Positions 34,841 to 57,965 of a DNA stretch of 64,000 bases are shown here, piece after piece. How positions within the stretch are numbered: position 1 is the first letter of the stretch; each line of letters starts with the position of its first letter. A model generated the notes under the pieces. It was not told where the DNA came from. It was given only the letters and a program-made list of their open reading frames with translations, and did no database searches. The DNA comes from Flavobacterium hungaricum. GTDB taxonomy: Bacteria; Bacteroidota; Bacteroidia; Flavobacteriales; Flavobacteriaceae. The DNA is taken from the NCBI RefSeq assembly GCF_015182285.1, contig NZ_PRDM01000001.1, forward strand, positions 1,550,001 to 1,614,000. The letters are read 5' to 3'. Made by a program: the position numbers and the translations under genes.

Positions 34841-34900
34841 ATGATTTCAATTCAATTACATCATCATCATCTACATTATTGCTCTCAAGCGATGTGTTAA
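34841..34900 (+). CDS. hisL: his operon leader peptide
   Basis: A 19-codon open frame, too short for ordinary gene finding, encodes MISIQLHHHHLHYCSQAMC and a TAA stop. Codons 7-10 and 12 are all His (CAT), five of 19, immediately upstream of hisG and just before a hairpin terminator. This is the layout of histidine attenuation: when charged His-tRNA is scarce the ribosome stalls on the His codons, and the transcript folds so that the terminator does not form. The start has the A-rich upstream context usual in this phylum. Function is inferred from layout; the His run and terminator are seen directly. Confidence 0.88.
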   Translation: MISIQLHHHHLHYCSQAMC

Positions 34901-34928
34901 TGGTATGCATGTAAATCATCATATTTTA

Positions 34929-34960
34929 AAACCCGTTTGAGTACATCAAACGGGTTTTTT
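34929..34960 (+). terminator. his attenuator hairpin
   Basis: AAACCCGTTTGA (34929-34940) pairs perfectly with TCAAACGGGTTT (34946-34957) around a GTACA loop, with a run of T residues. It starts 29 bases after the leader stop codon. A short rival pairing, CTCAA at 34884-34888 with TTGAG at 34937-34941, could contribute to an antiterminator, but I cannot establish the full alternative fold by eye. Confidence 0.85.
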
Positions 34961-47311: not shown

Positions 47312-47540
47312 ATAAAGTTTGAGATGATTTTTGAGTATAAACCTTCGTCCAAGTTTTAAACTTGTGCAAAGGTTGCTGTTAAGTGGTTCTTTTTCTTAAT
47401 GTTAATTTTAATTATTGTACGAATAGTATGATTTTATTTCTTTAATTTAGATTGTGATTTATTATAAATATTTTATAATCAATTAATTAAAGCGTAATCC
47501 GAAAAGCTTAAGAGTAGGAAAAATTCAAACTATTTCAACA

Positions 47541-47916: not shown

Positions 47917-49461
47917 TTACCTGCTGTTCAACTTCGCTTTTTCTCGGATAATTTCGCCAATAGTGCGATTTTCGATTTTGCTTTCAAGCCACGAAATTAT
48001 ATCTAAATAAAGAAAAGCTCTTTTTTCGTAAGTGCTTTTTTCCAGCTCCACAAAACGGGCATGCATTTTTTTGAATTCCTTTTTAATATCGGCAGGATAA
48101 AAATTATTCAGGTTTCTTAAAAACTTGATGATCTCTTTTTGAACTTCGTGCAAATCGTTCATTTTTATCAAGAACTTATACGTGCTTTTAAGGTGATTTT
48201 CTAAATAATAATCTTTACCAATTTCATAATGCGCAATCAAAGACAAAAGTCTGGCAAAGCACATTAAGTCTTCACGCATGGTTAAGTTTTTGTTATTGAT
48301 GATTTTATCCAAATACAAAATGCATTCGTTGTACTTTTCGTTTCCAAAATAAATAGAAGCGATTTTATAGAAAAACAACATTTCGTGGTGTTCATCAAGA
48401 TGATCGCTGTGCAGTTTTAATTTTTCTAATATTTCAGGAATTAAGTATTCGCTTTCTGCAAAAGTTCCTTTTAATATATGAAGGTTCAGTTTGTTGTTAT
48501 ACACATATAGAAATGATAACGACGCAATGTTGTCATTTACAGGAAATTTTGGATCGGCAATTGTTTCCTCTAGTAAACTCAGATATTTTTTAAAATTCGA
48601 TTTATATTTCAGCATATAAAGGGATTCTAAAAAATAATGATTTCCTTTTAAGAAAAACACCGGATTCAAGTAAATCATATTGGGATTGTCGTAGAACAAC
48701 TGAACCCATTTGTACGCAAATTTATAACTGGCTAAGAAATCCTGAACCAGAAAACTGCGCCAAAGACTGGCATTGTAAAACCAATACTTTTCGCGGAAAC
48801 CAAATTTGCTTTCGTCAAGCTTAGCCACATGCCTGTTAAAGTAATCGTCAATGTATTTGTATTCTTCATCACTTTTTACGTAACCTGTTTTCAGCATGAT
48901 TCCGTACAGCTGCAGTGAGAGATTTGATAATTTGCTTGAAATGGTATTTCGATAATTCAATTCCTTGGCCTGAACCACCAATTCGTCAGCGCGTCCTTGA
49001 ATACTGCGGGTTATATACTGCGATTCGATTAGTTTTTCAAATTCTACAATCTCATACGCCATATATTTTTCGTCATTTTCCAAAGCCTGCTGTTTGGTCT
49101 TGTCAAGAATTTTTAAACTTTGCTTGTACAATCCTTTATTATAAAGAATAACAGCAAAATCCATCTGTTCCCGTAATTGATAGCGTATGTTCTGACTCGG
49201 AATGTTTAAACGAATACTTACCAGAATTTGTTTGTACAGATATGATTTTAAGTTAGATAGCTGTACTTTTTGTATAACACCGCTTTTTAGAATAAGCTTC
49301 TCATCATAGTTTTCAGATTTATCCAAAATATTAAACAATTCAATAAATTTTGTGTTAGAACTCGTCTCTAAACGACTTGCAAAAATTTTAAATTGACGTT
49401 TTTCTGATTTTGAAAGTGACTTTATTAGAACAAATAAGAAATCTTTTTGATGGTTAGCCAT
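47917..49461 (-). CDS. Helical-repeat (TPR-like) cytoplasmic protein of unknown function
   Basis: The 514-residue protein has no signal or membrane segment. It is almost wholly helical with TPR-like pairs, for example LYNKGLYKQSLKILDKTKQQA and IYFGNEKYNECILYLDKII. The opening KDFLFVLIKSLSKSEKRQFK recurs in unassigned Bacteroidota proteins. I cannot assign a function. It is divergent from leuA, sharing a 149-bp region. Confidence 0.7.
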   Translation of the reverse strand: MANHQKDFLFVLIKSLSKSEKRQFKIFASRLETSSNTKFIELFNILDKSENYDEKLILKSGVIQKVQLSNLKSYLYKQILVSIRLNIPSQNIRYQLREQMDFAVILYNKGLYKQSLKILDKTKQQALENDEKYMAYEIVEFEKLIESQYITRSIQGRADELVVQAKELNYRNTISSKLSNLSLQLYGIMLKTGYVKSDEEYKYIDDYFNRHVAKLDESKFGFREKYWFYNASLWRSFLVQDFLASYKFAYKWVQLFYDNPNMIYLNPVFFLKGNHYFLESLYMLKYKSNFKKYLSLLEETIADPKFPVNDNIASLSFLYVYNNKLNLHILKGTFAESEYLIPEILEKLKLHSDHLDEHHEMLFFYKIASIYFGNEKYNECILYLDKIINNKNLTMREDLMCFARLLSLIAHYEIGKDYYLENHLKSTYKFLIKMNDLHEVQKEIIKFLRNLNNFYPADIKKEFKKMHARFVELEKSTYEKRAFLYLDIISWLESKIENRTIGEIIREKAKLNSR

Positions 49462-49554
49462 TGTAAAAAATAATAATGTAACTTATTGATAATTAATTTG
49501 TTATGGTGGTATAAATTGTGTTATGAACAGTATAATTTCATTAAAATGAATTTC

Positions 49555-49581
49555 GTACTGTGGTAGTACAATATATATTTG
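49555..49581 (+). promoter_or_regulatory. leuA promoter region: GTACT-N5-AGTAC inverted repeat and TATATTTG -7 element
   Basis: GTACT (49555-49559) and AGTAC (49565-49569) form an inverted repeat; TATATTTG at 49574-49581 fits the -7 consensus and lies 29 bases before the leuA ATG. The inverted repeat overlaps the space between -33 and -7, where a repressor would act. No leader peptide with Leu codons was found here. Confidence 0.45.
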
Positions 49582-49610
49582 TTATCAAGATGTGAAATTA
49601 CATTAAATAA

Positions 49611-50792
49611 ATGAATATGAATAGAGAGAAAGTTCAAATTTTTGACACCACTTTGCGCGATGGTGAACAAGTTCCAGGATGTAAGTTAGATACTAAACAA
49701 AAATTAGTGATCGCAGAACGACTAGATCAGATGGGAGTTGACATTATCGAAGCAGGATTTCCTGTGTCAAGTCCAGGCGATTTTTTATCGGTCTCTGAGA
49801 TTTGTAAAATTGTAGAGAATGCAACCGTCTGCGGATTAACAAGAGCCGTAAAAAATGACATTGATGTTGCTGCGGCAGCTTTAAAGCATGCTAAAAAACC
49901 TAGAATCCACACTGGAATCGGAACTTCAGAATCTCACATACTCCACAAATTACAAACAACGCCAGAGGACATTATTGCACGAGCAAAATATGCTGTTGCA
50001 CATGCAAAATCGTATGTAGAAGATGTTGAGTTTTATGCAGAAGATGCTGGTAGAACAGATAATGCTTTCTTAGCAAAAGTATGCGAAGAAGTGATTAAAT
50101 CGGGGGCTACCGTATTAAATATCCCAGATACAACAGGATATTGTCTTCCTGAAGAATATGGAGCAAAAATTAAATACTTAAAAGAAAACGTAAAAGGAAT
50201 CGAAAACGTAATCCTTTCTTGTCACTGTCACAATGATTTAGGTATGGCAACTGCAAACTCTATTGCCGGTGCTATAAATGGAGCAAGACAAATAGAATGT
50301 ACTATAAATGGTATTGGAGAAAGAGCTGGAAATACAGCACTTGAAGAGGTTGTAATGATCTTTAAACAACATCCATACTTAAACCTAGATACTAGTATCA
50401 ACACAAAAGAATTAAACGCTATGAGTCGTTTAGTTTCTGAAAGTATGGGAATGATTGTGCAGCCAAACAAAGCAATTGTTGGCGCTAACGCATTTGCACA
50501 CAGTTCAGGAATTCACCAAGATGGTGTTATTAAAAACAGAGCAACTTACGAAATCATGGATCCGCTTGATGTGGGAGTAAATGAATCGTCTATTATATTA
50601 ACTGCCAGAAGCGGAAGAGCGGCATTGGCTTACCGTGCTAAAAAAGTAGGTTACGAACTAACAAAAGTACAATTGGATATTGTATATGTGGAGTTCTTAA
50701 AATTTGCGGATATCAAAAAAGAAGTTGTAGACTCTGATATCCATCAAATTATAGAAGCTTCTAAAATCGAAGGAGATTTGATTAGAAGTTAA
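49611..50792 (+). CDS. leuA: 2-isopropylmalate synthase, short form
   Basis: LeuA condenses acetyl-CoA and 2-oxoisovalerate, the first step to leucine. The 393-residue protein has [17 protein letters not shown] with metal-binding Asp, [26 protein letters not shown] with the HxH metal site, and [14 protein letters not shown], then [13 protein letters not shown]. It ends near residue 393 and lacks the roughly 130-residue C-terminal LeuA dimer/allosteric domain of long forms, as in other Bacteroidota. Related citramalate- or homocitrate-type substrates cannot be ruled out, but the leuB next door favours leucine. Start may be 49611 or 49617. Confidence 0.92.
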
Positions 50793-50878: not shown

Positions 50879-51997
50879 ATGAATTTGAAAATTGCAGTTT
50901 TGCCAGGAGATGGAATTGGACCTGAGGTTATTTTACAAGCAAAAAAAGCTTTATACGCTATTGCGGAAGTTTACAATCATGAATTTGTTTTTGAAGACGC
51001 ACTTATGGGAGCTGTTGCGATTGATAAAACCGGAACTCCCTTACCGGAGCAAACCTTAAACCTGTGTCTGAACACAGATGCTGTTTTGCTTGGTGCGATC
51101 GGAGATCCAAAATATGATAACAATCCAAATGCAAAAGTTCGTCCGGAGCAGGGATTGTTAAAACTTCGTAAAGAACTTGGTCTGTTTGCTAACATTCGTC
51201 CTATTAAACCTTACAAAGCTTTAATTGAATCTTCTCCTTTAAAAAGAGAAATTATTGAAGGAGCCGATTTTACAATTTTCAGAGAACTAACAGGCGGTGC
51301 TTATTTCGGAACTAAAACTTTGAATGAAGAAGGAACACACGCATCAGATTTATGTGAGTATACAGAAGAAGAAATCACAAGAATTGCACATCTGGCTTTT
51401 AAATCGGCACAAAATCGCCGTAAAAAGTTAACATTGGTTGACAAAGCTAATGTTTTGGAAACTTCAAGATTGTGGAGAAAAGTAGTTCAGAAAGTGAGTG
51501 AAAACTATCCAGATGTTGTGCTTGATTTCTTATTCGTAGACAATGCAGCAATGCAGTTAATCTTAAATCCAAAGCAATTTGATGTGATTTTGACAGAGAA
51601 TTTATTTGGAGATATTTTATCTGACGAAGCCAGCGTAATTACAGGATCAATTGGTTTGCTGCCATCAGCATCTTTAGGAGAAAAGAATGCTTTGTTTGAG
51701 CCGATTCACGGTTCTTACCCACAGGCAAAAGGAAAAAATATTGCCAATCCGATTGCTTCGATTTTAGCAGCAGGGATGTTGTTGGAGCATTTTGGATTAA
51801 CTAAAGAAGCAAACGTAGTTTTTGCAGCAGTTAAAAAAGCAATTGAATACAAAGTGGTTACAATTGACTTAAAACCAGATTCTAAATTTGGTACCAATGA
51901 AGTAGGGGAGTTCGTTTCTAATTTCATTTTTAGTAAAGACGATCTGCTATATTTTAATAATGACAATGTAAGTATTGGACAATCTACAATTGTTTAA
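50879..51997 (+). CDS. leuB: 3-isopropylmalate dehydrogenase
   Basis: LeuB oxidises and decarboxylates 3-isopropylmalate with NAD. The 372-residue protein has AVLPGDGIGPEVILQAKKAL, the substrate loop LRKELGLFANIRPIKPY, FTIFRELTGGAYFG, VDKANVLETSRLWR and NLFGDILSDEASVITGSIG. Length is normal. The leuA-leuB gap contains the stuttered words AAGAATAAAGAATAAAGAGC. leuC and leuD, the isomerase genes, are not in this window. Confidence 0.97.
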   Translation: MNLKIAVLPGDGIGPEVILQAKKALYAIAEVYNHEFVFEDALMGAVAIDKTGTPLPEQTLNLCLNTDAVLLGAIGDPKYDNNPNAKVRPEQGLLKLRKELGLFANIRPIKPYKALIESSPLKREIIEGADFTIFRELTGGAYFGTKTLNEEGTHASDLCEYTEEEITRIAHLAFKSAQNRRKKLTLVDKANVLETSRLWRKVVQKVSENYPDVVLDFLFVDNAAMQLILNPKQFDVILTENLFGDILSDEASVITGSIGLLPSASLGEKNALFEPIHGSYPQAKGKNIANPIASILAAGMLLEHFGLTKEANVVFAAVKKAIEYKVVTIDLKPDSKFGTNEVGEFVSNFIFSKDDLLYFNNDNVSIGQSTIV

Positions 51998-52079
51998 TAT
52001 TTTTTGTTAAAAGATGAAGATAATGACAAGAATAGTTGAAAATGTTGATATTTTATTTTTTTAGTTGCTCAAGTTTCCA

Positions 52080-52087
52080 TACTTTTG
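52080..52087 (+). promoter_or_regulatory. -7 promoter element (TACTTTTG) upstream of the ilv leader
   Basis: TACTTTTG fits TAnnTTTG and lies 21 bases before the leader peptide ATG. A TTG at 52065 is only 12 bases upstream, too close for the usual -33, so support is partial. Confidence 0.45.
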
Positions 52088-52108
52088 TAACACTAAAAAA
52101 ATAGAAAG

Positions 52109-52183
52109 ATGCAAATCTCAATTATTATTATTTCTGTCGTTGTTGTCAATGTGTTTAACACATCTGCATCGGGAATGGTATAA
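52109..52183 (+). CDS. ilvL: ilv operon leader peptide
   Basis: A 24-codon open frame encodes MQISIIIISVVVVNVFNTSA then S-G-M-V and a TAA stop. It has five Ile and six Val codons, with four Ile and four Val consecutive, placed between leuB and ilvD and followed by a hairpin terminator. This is the design expected for attenuation by branched-chain aminoacyl-tRNA supply; Leu codons are absent, so control would be by Ile and Val. It is too short for ordinary gene calling. Function is inferred; the codon runs and hairpin are seen directly. Confidence 0.9.
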   Translation: MQISIIIISVVVVNVFNTSASGMV

Positions 52184-52206
52184 ATATAATTGAAAAACTA
52201 TATTAC

Positions 52207-52238
52207 AAACCTTCCAAATACTTGGAAGGTTTTTTTTT
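52207..52238 (+). terminator. ilv attenuator hairpin
   Basis: AAACCTTCCAA (52207-52217) pairs perfectly with TTGGAAGGTTT (52222-52232) around an ATAC loop, followed by T residues to 52238. It begins 24 bases after the leader stop codon. A small hairpin TGTGTT/AACACA lies within the leader coding sequence. The antiterminator was not resolved by eye. Confidence 0.88.
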
Positions 52239-52267
52239 GAACAAAAATTAAAAAAAATAATACAATA

Positions 52268-53941
52268 ATGGAATTAAATAAGTACAGTAAGACCATCACT
52301 CAAGATCAAACACAGCCTGCGGCACAAGCAATGTTGTACGGAATTGGTTTAACTGAAGAAGATTTGAAAAAAGCACAAGTTGGTATTGTGAGCATGGGTT
52401 ACGATGGTAATACTTGCAACATGCACTTGAACGATTTAGCAAAAGATGTTAAAAAAGGTGTTTGGGATGTAGATCTGGTCGGACTTATTTTTAATACCAT
52501 TGGTGTCAGTGACGGTATTTCTAACGGAACTGAGGGAATGCGTTATTCATTGGTTTCTCGTGATGTTATTGCAGATTCTATCGAGACTGTTGTGGGTGCA
52601 CAATGGTACGATGGTGTAATTGCAATTCCAGGCTGTGATAAAAATATGCCGGGAGCTTTGATTGCAATGGGAAGATTAAACCGTCCATCAATGATGGTTT
52701 ACGGAGGATCTATCCATTCTGGAAAATGGAAAGGAGAATCATTGAATATTGTTTCCGCTTTTGAAGCTTTAGGTAAAAAAGTGAGAAACGAAATTACTCC
52801 AGAAGATTTTAAAGGTGTGATTCAAAATTCCTGCCCTGGGCCTGGTGCTTGCGGCGGAATGTATACTGCCAATACCATGTCTTCTGCAATTGAAGCATTA
52901 GGAATGAGTCTGCCTTACAGTTCGTCAAATCCTGCTTTGAGTCAGGAAAAAAGAGACGAATGTGCAGCTGCCGGTGCGGCGATAAAAATTTTATTAGAAA
53001 AAGACATTAAGCCAAGAGATATTATGACTCGCAAAGCTTTTGAAAATGCTATTACCATTGTAGCAGTTTTAGGAGGTTCTACAAATGCGGTTATGCACTT
53101 AATTGCAATGGCACACTCTGTTGGCATCACAATCACTTTAGATGATTTTCAGGCAATTAATGACAGAACTCCGGTTTTGGCAGACATGAAACCGAGCGGT
53201 AAATACATGATGGAGGATATTCATGCAGTGGGAGGAATTCCGTCGGTAATGAAATATTTACTAAAAGTAGGACTTATTCATGGAGATTGTTTGACAGTAA
53301 CAGGAAAAACAGTAGCAGAAAATTTAGCTTCAACTCCAGATTTACAAGACGGTCAAGAAGTAATTCACGAAATACAAAAAGCATTAAAACCAACAGGAAA
53401 CATTCAGGTTTTATACGGAAACCTTGCTTCTGAAGGTGCTGTAGCGAAAATCAGCGGTAAAGAAGGAGAATATTTTGAAGGTCCTGCAGTAGTTTTTGAA
53501 GGAGAATTTGAAGTAATTCCAGGTCTTCAAGCCGGAAAAATTAAACCAGGCAGTGTAGTCGTCATCAGATATTGCGGACCAAAAGGTGGTCCAGGGATGC
53601 CTGAAATGCTAAAACCTACCTCGGCAATTATTGGTGCAGGTTTAGGAAGCAGCTGTGCTCTTATAACAGACGGAAGGTTCTCTGGAGGTTCGCATGGATT
53701 CGTGGTAGGACACGTAACACCAGAGGCTTATGATGGTGGTGGAATTGCATTGGTTCAAGATGGCGATATTATTGCTATTGACGCGGTGAAAAACACTATT
53801 GATCTTAAAATATCTGACGAAGAATTCGCAGCCCGTAAAGCAAGCTGGATTCAACCTCCTTTAAAAGTAGACAGAGGAGTTTTACTTAAATATGCTAGAG
53901 CCGTATCAAGCGCTTCAACAGGATGCGTTACCGATAATTAA
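52268..53941 (+). CDS. ilvD: Dihydroxy-acid dehydratase
   Basis: IlvD dehydrates the dihydroxy acids to 2-oxo acids in Ile and Val synthesis and carries an iron-sulfur cluster. The 557-residue protein has Cys ligands in [26 protein letters not shown] and [19 protein letters not shown], and the C-terminal [14 protein letters not shown]. Length is normal. First structural gene after the ilv attenuator. Confidence 0.98.
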
Positions 53942-53944
53942 TAA

Positions 53945-54105
53945 AATAACAATATCAAAAATCAATAGCAATGACAATAACAATATCAAAAATCAAATAG
54001 CAAAAAAAAACAAAAAATCAATTTACAATGTATCATTGAATTTGATTTTTGAGACTGCCATTGAATTTTGATATTGAAATTGAACTTTGATATTGATAAA
54101 ACAAA
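53945..54105. repeat. Stuttered palindromic spacer, ilvD-ilvB gap (family CAATATCAAAAATCAA)
   Basis: Left: AACAATATCAAAAATCAATA, GACAATAACAATATCAAAAA, CAAAAAATCAATTTAC; right: TTGAATTTGATTTTTGAGAC, TTTTGATATTGAAATTGAAC, TTTGATATTG. The arms are inverse. A TTG inside it (54068) gives a spurious N-terminal extension of ilvB. Confidence 0.7.
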
Positions 54106-54112
54106 ATATACT

Positions 54113-55801
54113 ATGAAAATATCAGGGGCAGAAGCCGTTATAAGATGTTTATTAGCAGAAGGAGTAGATTTAATTTATGGTTATCCGGGAGGAGCTATAA
54201 TGCCGGTTTACGACGAATTATATAAATTTCAAGATCAATTACACCACGTTTTAGTTCGTCACGAACAAGGCGCTACACACGCAGCTCAGGGATATGCGAG
54301 AGCAACAGGCAAGGTAGGAGTAGCGATTGCAACTTCTGGTCCTGGAGCAACAAACTTAGTTACCGGAATTGCCGATGCTCAAATCGATTCCACTCCAATG
54401 GTTTGTATTACCGGACAGGTTGGAAGACATTTATTAGGTTCTGATGCGTTTCAGGAAACAGATATTATCGGAATTTCAACTCCGGTTACCAAATGGAATT
54501 TTCAGGTTACAGAGGCTTCTCAAATACCAGAAATAATAGCAAAAGCATTTTATATTGCTCGTTCTGGACGTCCAGGTCCGGTTTTGGTTGACATTACTAA
54601 AAATGCTCAGTTTGACGAATTTGATTTCAGTTACGAAAAATGTACAGGAATCAGAAGTTATGTGCCAGTTCCAAAATTAAAATTAGATAAAGTTGCCGAA
54701 GCTGCAGCATTGATTAACAGTGCCAAAAAACCTTTAATCGTTTTTGGACAGGGAATTATCTTGGGACAAGCAGAAGCTGAATTTAAAGCATTTGTAGAAA
54801 AATCAGGAATTCCTGCTGCATGGACTATTTTAGGACTTTCAGCATTGCCGACTGATCATCCGTTAAATGTTGGAATGCTTGGAATGCACGGAAATTATGC
54901 ACCCAACTTAAAAACAAACGAATGTGATGTTTTAATTGCATTGGGAATGCGTTTTGACGATCGTGTTACGGGTAATTTAAAAACCTATGCAAAACAAGCA
55001 AAAGTAATTCACTTCGAAATTGATCCGGCAGAAGTGGATAAAAATGTTAAAACAGAGGTTGCCGTTTTAGGTGATGTAAAAGAATCTCTAGCAGCGCTTT
55101 TACCATTATTAGATCAAAAATCACATGATTCTTGGCACAACGAATTTAAAGAATTGCATCAAATTGAATTTGATACCGTAATAAAAGAAGAATTAAACCC
55201 AACTGGTGATAAAGGAATTTCGATGGGAGAAACTATCGAGATGATCAACAAACATTCAAAAGGTGATGCGATTATTGTAAGCGATGTAGGCCAGCACCAG
55301 ATGTTTGCCTGCCGATATGCAAAATTTAATTCTTCAAAAAGTAATATTACTTCTGGCGGTTTAGGAACTATGGGGTTTGCACTGCCGGCAGCAATTGGAG
55401 CAAAAATGGGTAAACCAGAACGCGAAGTTGTTGCTATTATTGGAGATGGAGGTTTCCAGATGACAATTCAGGAATTGGGAACTATTTTCCAAACAAAAGT
55501 ACCGGTGAAAATTGTGATTCTAAACAATGAATTCCTTGGAATGGTGCGTCAATGGCAGGAATTGTTCTTTGATAACAGATATGCTTCAACAAGAATGATC
55601 AATCCAAATTTTGTTGCTATTGCAGAAGGATATCATATAAAATCTAAAAAAGTAACACAAAGAGAAGATCTCGATGCTGCCGTGGCAGAAATGCTGGCTT
55701 CAAAAGATTCTTATTTCTTAGAAGTTATGATTGAAAAAGAAAACAACGTTTTCCCAATGATTCCAACGGGAGCTTGTGTTTCTGAAATTAGATTAAGCTA
55801 A
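54113..55801 (+). CDS. ilvB: Acetolactate synthase, large (catalytic) subunit
   Basis: The large subunit of acetohydroxyacid synthase uses ThDP and FAD to form acetolactate or acetohydroxybutyrate. The protein has the N-terminal ThDP domain with catalytic Glu in LVRHEQGATHAAQGYAR, the central FAD domain with GMLGMHGNYAPN and ALGMRFDDRVTG, and the C-terminal ThDP-Mg motif AIIGDGGFQMTIQELGT followed by NNEFLGMVRQWQ. The ATG at 54113 (MKISGAEAVIRCLL) gives 562 residues and the usual start; the upstream TTG frame is in the repeat spacer. Confidence 0.97.
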   Translation: MKISGAEAVIRCLLAEGVDLIYGYPGGAIMPVYDELYKFQDQLHHVLVRHEQGATHAAQGYARATGKVGVAIATSGPGATNLVTGIADAQIDSTPMVCITGQVGRHLLGSDAFQETDIIGISTPVTKWNFQVTEASQIPEIIAKAFYIARSGRPGPVLVDITKNAQFDEFDFSYEKCTGIRSYVPVPKLKLDKVAEAAALINSAKKPLIVFGQGIILGQAEAEFKAFVEKSGIPAAWTILGLSALPTDHPLNVGMLGMHGNYAPNLKTNECDVLIALGMRFDDRVTGNLKTYAKQAKVIHFEIDPAEVDKNVKTEVAVLGDVKESLAALLPLLDQKSHDSWHNEFKELHQIEFDTVIKEELNPTGDKGISMGETIEMINKHSKGDAIIVSDVGQHQMFACRYAKFNSSKSNITSGGLGTMGFALPAAIGAKMGKPEREVVAIIGDGGFQMTIQELGTIFQTKVPVKIVILNNEFLGMVRQWQELFFDNRYASTRMINPNFVAIAEGYHIKSKKVTQREDLDAAVAEMLASKDSYFLEVMIEKENNVFPMIPTGACVSEIRLS

Positions 55802-55886: not shown

Positions 55887-56408
55887 ATGGAAGATAAAAC
55901 ATTCACCATATCGGTATATTCAGAAAATAATGTGGGATTATTAAATAGGATATCAGGAATATTCTTAAAGCGACACATTAATATATTAAGTCTAAATGTT
56001 TCAGAATCAGAAATAGAAAACGTTTCAAGATTCATCATTGTAGTAAATACTACAGAAAAATGGGTTCAGAATATTGTCGGGCAGATCGAAAAACAAATTG
56101 ACGTTATCAAAGCTTTTTATCACACAGACGAAGAGACTATTTTTCTTGAAAATGCTTTGTTCAAGATAGCTTCGAATTTATTATTTGACGAAAAACAAAT
56201 TCAGAACATCATCAAAGAAAGCCAGTCAACAATTGTTACAGTTTCAAGAGATTTCTTTGTGATTTCTAAATCTGGAAGACGCTCTGAAATTGAAGAATTG
56301 TATGAAAAGATCAAACCATACGGAATCATGCAGTTTGTACGTTCTGGGAGAATTTCGGTTTCAAAACAAAAAATGGAGATTTCAGCATTGTTAGAAACCT
56401 TCAAATAA
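55887..56408 (+). CDS. ilvN: Acetolactate synthase, small (regulatory) subunit
   Basis: The 173-residue protein has the N-terminal ACT domain (FTISVYSENNVGLLNRISGI, FLKRHINILSLNVSESE) that senses valine and activates IlvB, and a C-terminal domain with VTVSRDFFVISKSGRRSEIEE and FVRSGRISVSKQKM. Length fits the family of about 160-175. Confidence 0.94.
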   Translation: MEDKTFTISVYSENNVGLLNRISGIFLKRHINILSLNVSESEIENVSRFIIVVNTTEKWVQNIVGQIEKQIDVIKAFYHTDEETIFLENALFKIASNLLFDEKQIQNIIKESQSTIVTVSRDFFVISKSGRRSEIEELYEKIKPYGIMQFVRSGRISVSKQKMEISALLETFK

Positions 56409-56495: not shown

Positions 56496-57965
56496 ATGGC
56501 AAATTATTTCAACACACTACCACTTAGATTACAATTAGAGCAGCTAGGAGTTTGCGAGTTTATGGATCAGTCAGAATTTGCAGACGGAATTGCAGCATTA
56601 GCAGGAAAAAAAGTTGTAATTGTAGGCTGTGGAGCACAAGGTTTGAATCAAGGATTAAATATGAGAGATTCTGGTTTGGATATTTCTTATGCATTACGTG
56701 CAGATGCAATAGCTGAAAAAAGAGCTTCATTTAAAAACGCTTCAGAAAACGGTTTTACTGTTGGTACTTATGAAGAATTGATTCCAACTGCAGATTTAGT
56801 TTGTAACCTTACACCAGACAAACAACATACTGCTGTGGTAAATGCAATTATGCCATTAATGAAAAAAGATGCCACTCTAGCATATTCTCACGGTTTCAAT
56901 ATTGTTGAAGAAGGAATGCAGATTCGTAAAGACTTAACAGTAATTATGTGTGCGCCTAAATGTCCTGGTTCTGAGGTTCGTGAAGAATATAAAAGAGGTT
57001 TTGGTGTGCCGACACTTATTGCGGTTCACCCAGAAAATGATCCAAACGGATTTGGTTTAGACCAGGCAAAAGCTTACGCTGTAGCAACTGGAGGACACAG
57101 AGCAGGAGTTTTAAGATCATCTTTTGTAGCAGAGGTAAAATCAGATTTAATGGGTGAGCAGACAATCCTTTGCGGATTGCTTCAAACAGGATCTATTTTA
57201 TGTTTTGATAAAATGGTAGAAAAAGGAATCGATGCTGCTTACGCTTCAAAATTAATTCAATACGGATGGGAAACTATCACAGAAGCTTTGAAACACGGTG
57301 GTATCACAAATATGATGGATCGTTTAAACAATCCTTCAAAAATTGAAGCTTATGAATTAGCAGAAGAATTAAAAGATATCATGCGTCCGTTATTCCAAAA
57401 ACACCAAGACGATATTATTTCTGGAGAATTCTCAAGAACTATGATGGCGGACTGGGCTAACGACGATGTGAATTTATTAAAATGGAGAGCGGCAACAGGA
57501 GAAACTAACTTCGAAAAAACAGCACCGCAGGAAGCTCCAATTTCTGAGCAGGAATATTTTGATAATGGAGTATTGATGATTGCCATGGTTAAAGCGGGTG
57601 TAGAATTGGCTTTTGAAACAATGACAGAAGCTGGAATTATTGAAGAATCTGCATACTATGAGTCATTACACGAATTGCCTTTGATCGCTAATACAATTGC
57701 TAGAAAGAAATTATTCGAAATGAACCGTGTAATTTCTGACACAGCTGAGTACGGTTGTTATTTATTTGACCATGCTTGTAAGCCTTTGTTAACTGAATTC
57801 ATGAAAAAAGTAGAAACTAATATTATTGGTAAACCATTTTCAACTTCAAACGGTGTTGACAATGCAGTACTTATCGCAGTAAACAAAGAAATCCGTCAGC
57901 ATCCTATCGAAGAAGTAGGAGCTTGGTTGAGAGAGTCTATGACTGCAATGAAAAAAATTGGATAA
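56496..57965 (+). CDS. ilvC: Ketol-acid reductoisomerase, class II (long form)
   Basis: IlvC isomerises and reduces acetolactate with NADPH. The 489-residue protein is the long enterobacterial-type enzyme with two C-terminal knotted domains, not the 330-residue form. Landmarks: [21 protein letters not shown] for NADPH binding, [41 protein letters not shown], and metal ligands in [17 protein letters not shown]. Last gene of the ilv operon; a hairpin follows the stop codon. Confidence 0.97.

Follow-up and report, generated by a model that had tools for sequence, protein, structure and literature searches.

A probable isoleucine/valine leader-peptide attenuator between leuB and ilvD in Flavobacterium hungaricum

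Introduction

The leuAB and ilvDBNC genes of Flavobacterium hungaricum form one cluster, and a short frame rich in isoleucine and valine codons lies between leuB and ilvD. This arrangement raises the question of whether the frame encodes the leader peptide of an attenuator and, if so, whether the two halves of the cluster respond to different amino acids. The locus was analysed within a stretch of 64,000 nucleotides, referred to here as the window. Each of the six genes passes at least one NCBIfam cut-off:

49611 to 50792, + strand: leuA, 2-isopropylmalate synthase (NF002086, 591 bits, cut-off 532)
50879 to 51997, + strand: leuB, 3-isopropylmalate dehydrogenase (TIGR00169, above cut-off)
52268 to 53941, + strand: ilvD, dihydroxy-acid dehydratase (TIGR00110, above cut-off), the first gene behind the putative attenuator
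54068 to 55801, + strand: ilvB, acetolactate synthase large subunit (TIGR00118, above cut-off; start codon as mechanically listed)
55887 to 56408, + strand: ilvN, acetolactate synthase small subunit (TIGR00119, above cut-off)
56496 to 57965, + strand: ilvC, ketol-acid reductoisomerase (NF003557 and TIGR00465, above cut-off)

The Leader Frame

52109 to 52183, + strand: leader ORF encoding MQISIIIISVVVVNVFNTSASGMV, 24 sense codons, ATG at 52109 and TAA at 52181-52183, as read from the sequence
52115 to 52153, + strand: control-codon block with Ile 3, Ile 5-8, Val 10-13 and Val 15, as read from the sequence

The block is built around four ATT codons for Ile (codons 5-8) and the Val codons GTC GTT GTT GTC (codons 10-13), while Leu codons are absent from the frame as read. 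The original prediction had described a 24-codon frame between leuB and ilvD with four Ile and four Val codons, further codons of both kinds and no Leu codon, and the sequence agrees on every point, the further codons being Ile 3 and Val 15 and the two runs being separated by a single Ser codon.

The window contains 312 ATG-started frames of 10-40 codons on the + strand and 318 on the - strand, GTG and TTG starts being left out of this count. On both strands, the leader is the sole short frame with at least 8 Ile/Val per 10 residues, and it is also the sole frame in the window with at least 6 Ile/Val per 10 that ends no more than 80 nt from a predicted terminator. Among 2000 dinucleotide-shuffled versions of the leuB-ilvD gap (51998-52267), none contained a frame with at least 8 Ile/Val per 10. 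A Pfam search gave no match for the leader peptide.

Promoter Box, Terminator and Predicted RNA Folds

52080 to 52087, + strand: putative promoter -7 box TACTTTTG of the TAnnTTTG type, as read from the sequence, with a transcript start placed near 52092
52118 to 52193, + strand: predicted protector hairpin (1:2), outer helix 52118-52125 UCAAUUAU with 52186-52193 AUAAUUGA, in the minimum-energy fold
52172 to 52188, + strand: segment 2, GGAA-U-GGU-AUA-AAUAUA, which covers the last codons and the stop codon (sequence and folding)
52172 to 52215, + strand: predicted antiterminator (2:3), GGAA/UUCC, GGU/ACC and AAUAUA/UAUAUU, -8.3 kcal/mol
52207 to 52238, + strand: intrinsic terminator (3:4), stem 52207-52217 with 52222-52232, loop 52218-52221, T-run to 52238

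The flavobacterial promoter element TAnnTTTG occupies positions -12 to -5, and Flavobacterium mRNAs are described as having no Shine-Dalgarno sequences (PMC9723704). The TACTTTTG box would thus imply that the transcript starts near 52092.

The perfect 11-bp hairpin with T-run that had been predicted behind the frame is present at 52207-52238. Its stem consists of 11 perfect pairs, AAACCTTCCAA-ATAC-TTGGAAGGTTT (52207-52232), the T-run ends at 52238, and the fold of 52206-52238 has an energy of -14.0 kcal/mol (z -5.0), with 0 of 200 shuffles equally stable. Folding the whole of 52093-52238 (-32.7 kcal/mol, z -4.0) yields the terminator together with a long hairpin that links the 3' end of the frame with the Ile codons. 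If the 3' arm of the terminator is omitted from the computation, the end of the frame pairs with the terminator 5' arm instead, and this antiterminator fold (52172-52215) is matched in stability by 8 and 9 of 200 shuffles in two framings. The sequence GGRAATGGTATARATATAA, allowing at most two mismatches, occurs once in the window, against 0.00 expected. The folds thus predict two alternative RNA states, protector plus terminator on the one hand and an antiterminator that excludes both on the other, much as in a textbook attenuator.

The Proposed Switch

The locus combines a codon run matched to the pathway with a terminator that follows the ORF and precedes the first structural gene, and, as predictions, an antiterminator built on the terminator 5' arm, an ORF end at segment 2 and an upstream promoter box. 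What can be read in the DNA itself is the ORF with its terminator, the promoter-like box, the potential for pairing and the conservation of these parts. As judged from the sequence and the predicted folds, a ribosome-mediated transcription attenuator very probably controls ilvDBNC; we infer leader translation, ribosome stalling, termination and the response to isoleucine and valine, all four, from the same sources.

A ribosome covers about 15 nt ahead of its P-site codon, so that one standing at the stop codon would cover segment 2, while one standing at codons 3-15 would leave it free. RNA polymerase would start near 52092, with a ribosome translating the 24-codon leader behind it. With an ample supply of charged Ile-tRNA and Val-tRNA, the ribosome would reach the UAA at 52181 and cover segment 2 (52172-52188), the terminator at 52207-52232 would form, and transcription would stop at about 52238. 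When Ile- or Val-tRNA is scarce, the ribosome would stall in codons 3-15, and the free segment 2 would pair with the terminator 5' arm, which would block the terminator and allow read-through into ilvDBNC. If the leader is not translated at all, the protector hairpin would fold and transcription would terminate. This provides a complete segment-by-segment attenuator model for Flavobacterium that is open to experimental test.

Conservation within Flavobacterium

An ilvD-type match was obtained in 165 of the 299 genomes of the genus searched, some of these matches being distant dehydratases only. The loci examined comprise the best 30 of the ilvD search and 80 further regions from the same search, plus named loci. 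Among the 110 loci, 107 were compared, and three (L069, L070 and L230) were left out, in which ilvD is 71-78% similar, no leuB gap was obtained and no leader was seen. In 102 of the 107 loci, leuB lies immediately 5' of ilvD, and the gap between the two genes in these 102 is bimodal, measuring 33-122 nt in 28 loci and 251-280 nt in 74. Every long-gap Flavobacterium locus, named loci included, has both terminator and leader, and none was dropped for a missing terminator. Among the short-gap loci, no leader with a terminator was found, and only L216 and L227 scored at all, weakly (4.5 and 4).

Merging identical leader sequences left 69 distinct Flavobacterium versions; they share ancestry, and a count of 69 out of 69 therefore does not amount to 69 independent tests. 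The leader lies at about -160 of ilvD in the relatives, and the Ile/Val codons expected to be conserved are indeed retained, with at least 8 Ile plus Val codons in 69/69 leaders and a median of 10. A TAnnTT[TC][GA] box is found no more than 45 nt upstream of each of the 69, which would give 5' UTRs of 12-20 nt. In 12/69 leaders there are at least two Leu codons (maximum 4), one group having a leader that reads like ...VLLVLSVIVI...; the absence of Leu codons is therefore not general.

Folding was performed on each sequence separately rather than by the columns of alignment A2, because the terminator arms in several of its rows are shifted by one base. In all 69 leaders, the predicted fold pairs at least three C of the terminator 5' arm with upstream bases, a criterion that a shuffled upstream segment meets in 53% of cases. 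Shuffles of the upstream segment are as stable as the real fold in a median of 4% over the 69 leaders; the antiterminator has a median z of -1.6, and at most 10 of 200 shuffles are as stable in 23/69. At least 6 of the 20 segment 2 bases pair with the codon region in 69/69 leaders, a count without a null, and the protector energy has a median z of -1.8, falling below -2 in 28/69. Single-sequence folding thus gives the predicted structures a modest advantage over shuffles. The pairing partner of the arm starts between -24 and +1 nt relative to the ORF end in all 69 leaders, and 12-13 nt before the end in 50 of them.

In some species, the leader stops early, and the GGGAA...ATATAA element is placed just after the stop codon. 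The persistence of the element behind earlier stops suggests that the conserved 'GMV' end of the peptide reflects RNA conservation and indicates that the RNA, not the peptide end, is what is kept. The terminator arm type changes 8 times on the ilvD tree, with pairing retained. CCUCCC arms occur with GGG in 29 leaders and with GG only in none, CCUUCC arms in 30 and 5, and ACUCCC arms in 5 and none, respectively. Strict covariation between GGG/GG and the arm was considered within the genus and set aside as uninformative, since GGGAA can serve both main arms; compensatory change is limited for the same reason, the GGGA element pairing with both main arm types.

These comparisons bear on the simplest alternative, according to which the hairpin serves as a simple terminator for leuAB transcription, ilvD has a separate promoter, which may lie between the hairpin and ilvD, and the Ile/Val frame is incidental. 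The position of the hairpin, 3' of leuB, and its good quality as an intrinsic terminator fit this view. However, in 69/69 versions the hairpin comes after the promoter box, and a terminator in this position would block the promoter's own genes unless it were relieved; in addition, the Ile/Val run is far above chance, and antiterminator pairing is predicted in all 69, against the 53% of the null. A plain terminator is thus very unlikely.

Other Leaders in the Same Genome

The leader before ilvD has counterparts in the same genome. Upstream of ilvA (L233, G000:C5:1140975-1142198) lies an Ile-only leader, MTNSTNIIIAISSIIAIQQ, with its own terminator and a predicted antiterminator. In a set of 60 ilvA loci, which are best matches and biased to close relatives, leaders were found at 52 and by this rule at none of the other 8; 45 of the 52 are without Val, and for all 52, folding predicts 4 or more pairs with the arm, a count without a null. 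Within the window, a His leader, MISIQLHHHHLHYCSQAMC (34841-34900), stands just before hisG; the region from leader to terminator spans 34841-34958, the terminator reads AAAACCCGTTTGA...TCAAACGGG followed by T6, and folding predicts pairing of the terminator's 5' arm and loop with the last part of the ORF (CUCAAGCG). A Trp leader, MNTILNNTWWWNNLRQTS, with a terminator precedes a trpE-type gene (PF04715 match; L272, G000:C7, upstream of 488600). At the aspartokinase loci L268-L270, no leader was accepted, the only scored candidate (at L270) being weak and in the wrong orientation.

The frame before ilvD is short and its product hydrophobic, as would be expected of a small membrane peptide with a function of its own, but the sequence drifts in the relatives with mainly richness in Ile and Val (and Leu) retained, some versions are shorter with the RNA element still there, Pfam gives no match, and this genome also has His- and Trp-rich counterparts, placed ahead of hisG and of the trpE-type gene, all of which makes such a peptide highly improbable. 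A ligand- or protein-binding RNA (a riboswitch, T-box or similar) sensing the amino acids beside an incidental ORF would share the layout of terminator and antiterminator, yet it can be given hardly any credence in view of the pathway-matched control codons in four leaders of this genome and of the Rfam result, in which the locus gives no match at gathering score to a T-box, a catalogued riboswitch or any other family. The only such match in the window is a DUF805b RNA at 47489-47520 (41.4 bits, above the gathering score).

Do leuAB and ilvDBNC Respond Separately?

49574 to 49581, + strand: possible separate promoter -7 box TATATTTG before leuA, a TAnnTTTG match by eye

With the attenuator as the preferred reading for ilvDBNC, the original prediction that the two halves of the cluster answer to different amino acids is only partly supported. 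The Ile/Val leader lies before ilvD, but by the rule requiring an ORF and a terminator, neither leader nor terminator was found before leuA (49301-49610), so that no amino-acid response is shown for leuAB. The same rule found no leader before leuC, which lies elsewhere in the genome (G000:C5). Terminator prediction found none between leuB and the leader, and leuAB transcripts may therefore run into the ilvD attenuator; moreover, 12 of the 69 leaders do hold two or more Leu codons. A search for leuA leaders in the relatives gave weak matches only in L048, L072, L094 and L130, none of them a leaderless Flavobacterium, and these were judged to be due to chance.

The C-terminal domain of 2-isopropylmalate synthase binds leucine and mediates feedback. 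LeuA has 393 aa; its alignment with the 516-position 2-isopropylmalate synthase model covers only about the first 384 positions, and no Pfam match was found beyond residue 370. Because of this partial match and the missing Pfam hit, LeuA may be without the leucine-binding domain and its feedback.

Presence of the Leader and Its Link to ilvA

Among 102 genomes, 67 carry both leader and ilvA and 25 lack both, while the leader occurs alone in 7 and ilvA alone in 3; the 67 include G093, which was counted as ilvA-positive with an ilvA only 67% identical and located beside a second ilvD. Five loci without leuB before ilvD (L041, L191, L197, L201 and L203), in which the upstream sequence reads as the end of leuA, are outside this table and were counted as leaderless on the tree. 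Mapped onto the ilvD gene tree, leader presence shows 11 changes and ilvA presence 13. Of 10 independent pairs contrasting in the leader, an average of 6.5 have a matching ilvA difference, 0.2 an opposite one and 3.4 none (sign test, median p 0.03, range 0.016-0.22), the tree being that of a single gene built by a quick method and the ilvA status coming from one query. It is suggestive that the presence of the leader tracks that of ilvA across species. A likely reason is that an ilvDBNC operon without ilvA no longer serves the synthesis of threonine-derived isoleucine.

Leaderless relatives retain leuAB-ilvDBNC, and the attenuator module is therefore dispensable. A tentative reading, plausible though not quite the favoured outcome, is that promoter, leader and terminator constitute a compact plug-in of about 200 bp at the leuB-ilvD junction, which would be kept with ilvA and repeatedly absent without it, and which would also act on leuAB transcripts, splitting one operon into two differently regulated halves alongside the Ile-only attenuator of ilvA. 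The match between codons and pathway branch (Ile and Val for ilvDBNC, Ile for ilvA, none found for leuA or leuC), together with the ilvA link, opens the gain and loss of such switches to a comparative test.

Beyond Flavobacterium

Under a stricter rule, a leader with a terminator precedes ilvD in 7 of the 20 further genera sampled from the family, at 1 of 20 more distant loci (order, class or phylum level) and at 12 of the 69 named loci that lie outside Flavobacterium; these sets partly overlap, L083 and L172 sharing one leader. In each of these 20 non-Flavobacterium leaders, 4 or more pairs with the arm are predicted, in a set without a shuffle control. Outside the genus, some arms have other sequences, such as CCUGUAUC or CCCGCCU, with corresponding differences in the element close to where the ORF ends. 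The recurrence of a GGAATGGTAT-like element in several other genera (L073, L083, L089) suggests a common origin of the leader within the family.

Comparison with Known Systems

The enterobacterial ilvGMEDA and ilvBN attenuators consist of a leader with branched-chain codons, Leu codons included, a terminator and alternative hairpins. In layout, the region before the ilv genes is the same in F. hungaricum, whereas the leader here contains Ile and Val codons only, lies inside a leuAB-ilvDBNC cluster and is preceded by a Flavobacterium-type promoter. A comparative study by Vitreschak and colleagues from 2004 reportedly listed candidate attenuators in Bacteroidetes/Chlorobi as well. In Rfam, the Phe_leader model RF01859 matches over its full length at 52108-52238 (33.7 bits, E 3e-4); this match ranks first among 25 weak ones, to mixed families, in a listing that extends to E 5, and is consistent with a similar hairpin plan; the score lies below the gathering score of 55, and codons and genes differ, so that the locus is not a member of this family.

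Among the papers searched, no account of leader-peptide attenuation at ilvD in Bacteroidetes was found. In the same genus, 'strong clues' of leader-peptide attenuation upstream of amino-acid operons are noted for Flavobacterium psychrophilum in a paper whose main text has no word beginning 'ilv' and whose supplementary tables may hold an ilvD entry (PMC9723704). Attenuation in Flavobacterium has thus been inferred, but no dissection of it was found in the literature examined. In the same phylum, Bacteroides thetaiotaomicron has long 5' UTRs with short ORFs that were called reminiscent of attenuation leader peptides; the example given precedes a hypothetical protein, and the main text likewise has no word beginning 'ilv' (PMC7366714). 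A survey from 2010 presented its own His leader in bacilli as, to its authors' knowledge and with the exception of ermC, the first leader system demonstrated outside Proteobacteria and Actinobacteria (PMC2965389). The Corynebacterium ilvBNC operon is described as regulated by a conserved uORF and alternative hairpins, in another phylum and with a gene order other than that of the Flavobacterium cluster (PMC10272879, PMC11857589). The mechanism itself is already known, here in a less studied bacterial group, and what is unusual is mainly its location inside the leuAB-ilvDBNC cluster and its patchy occurrence.
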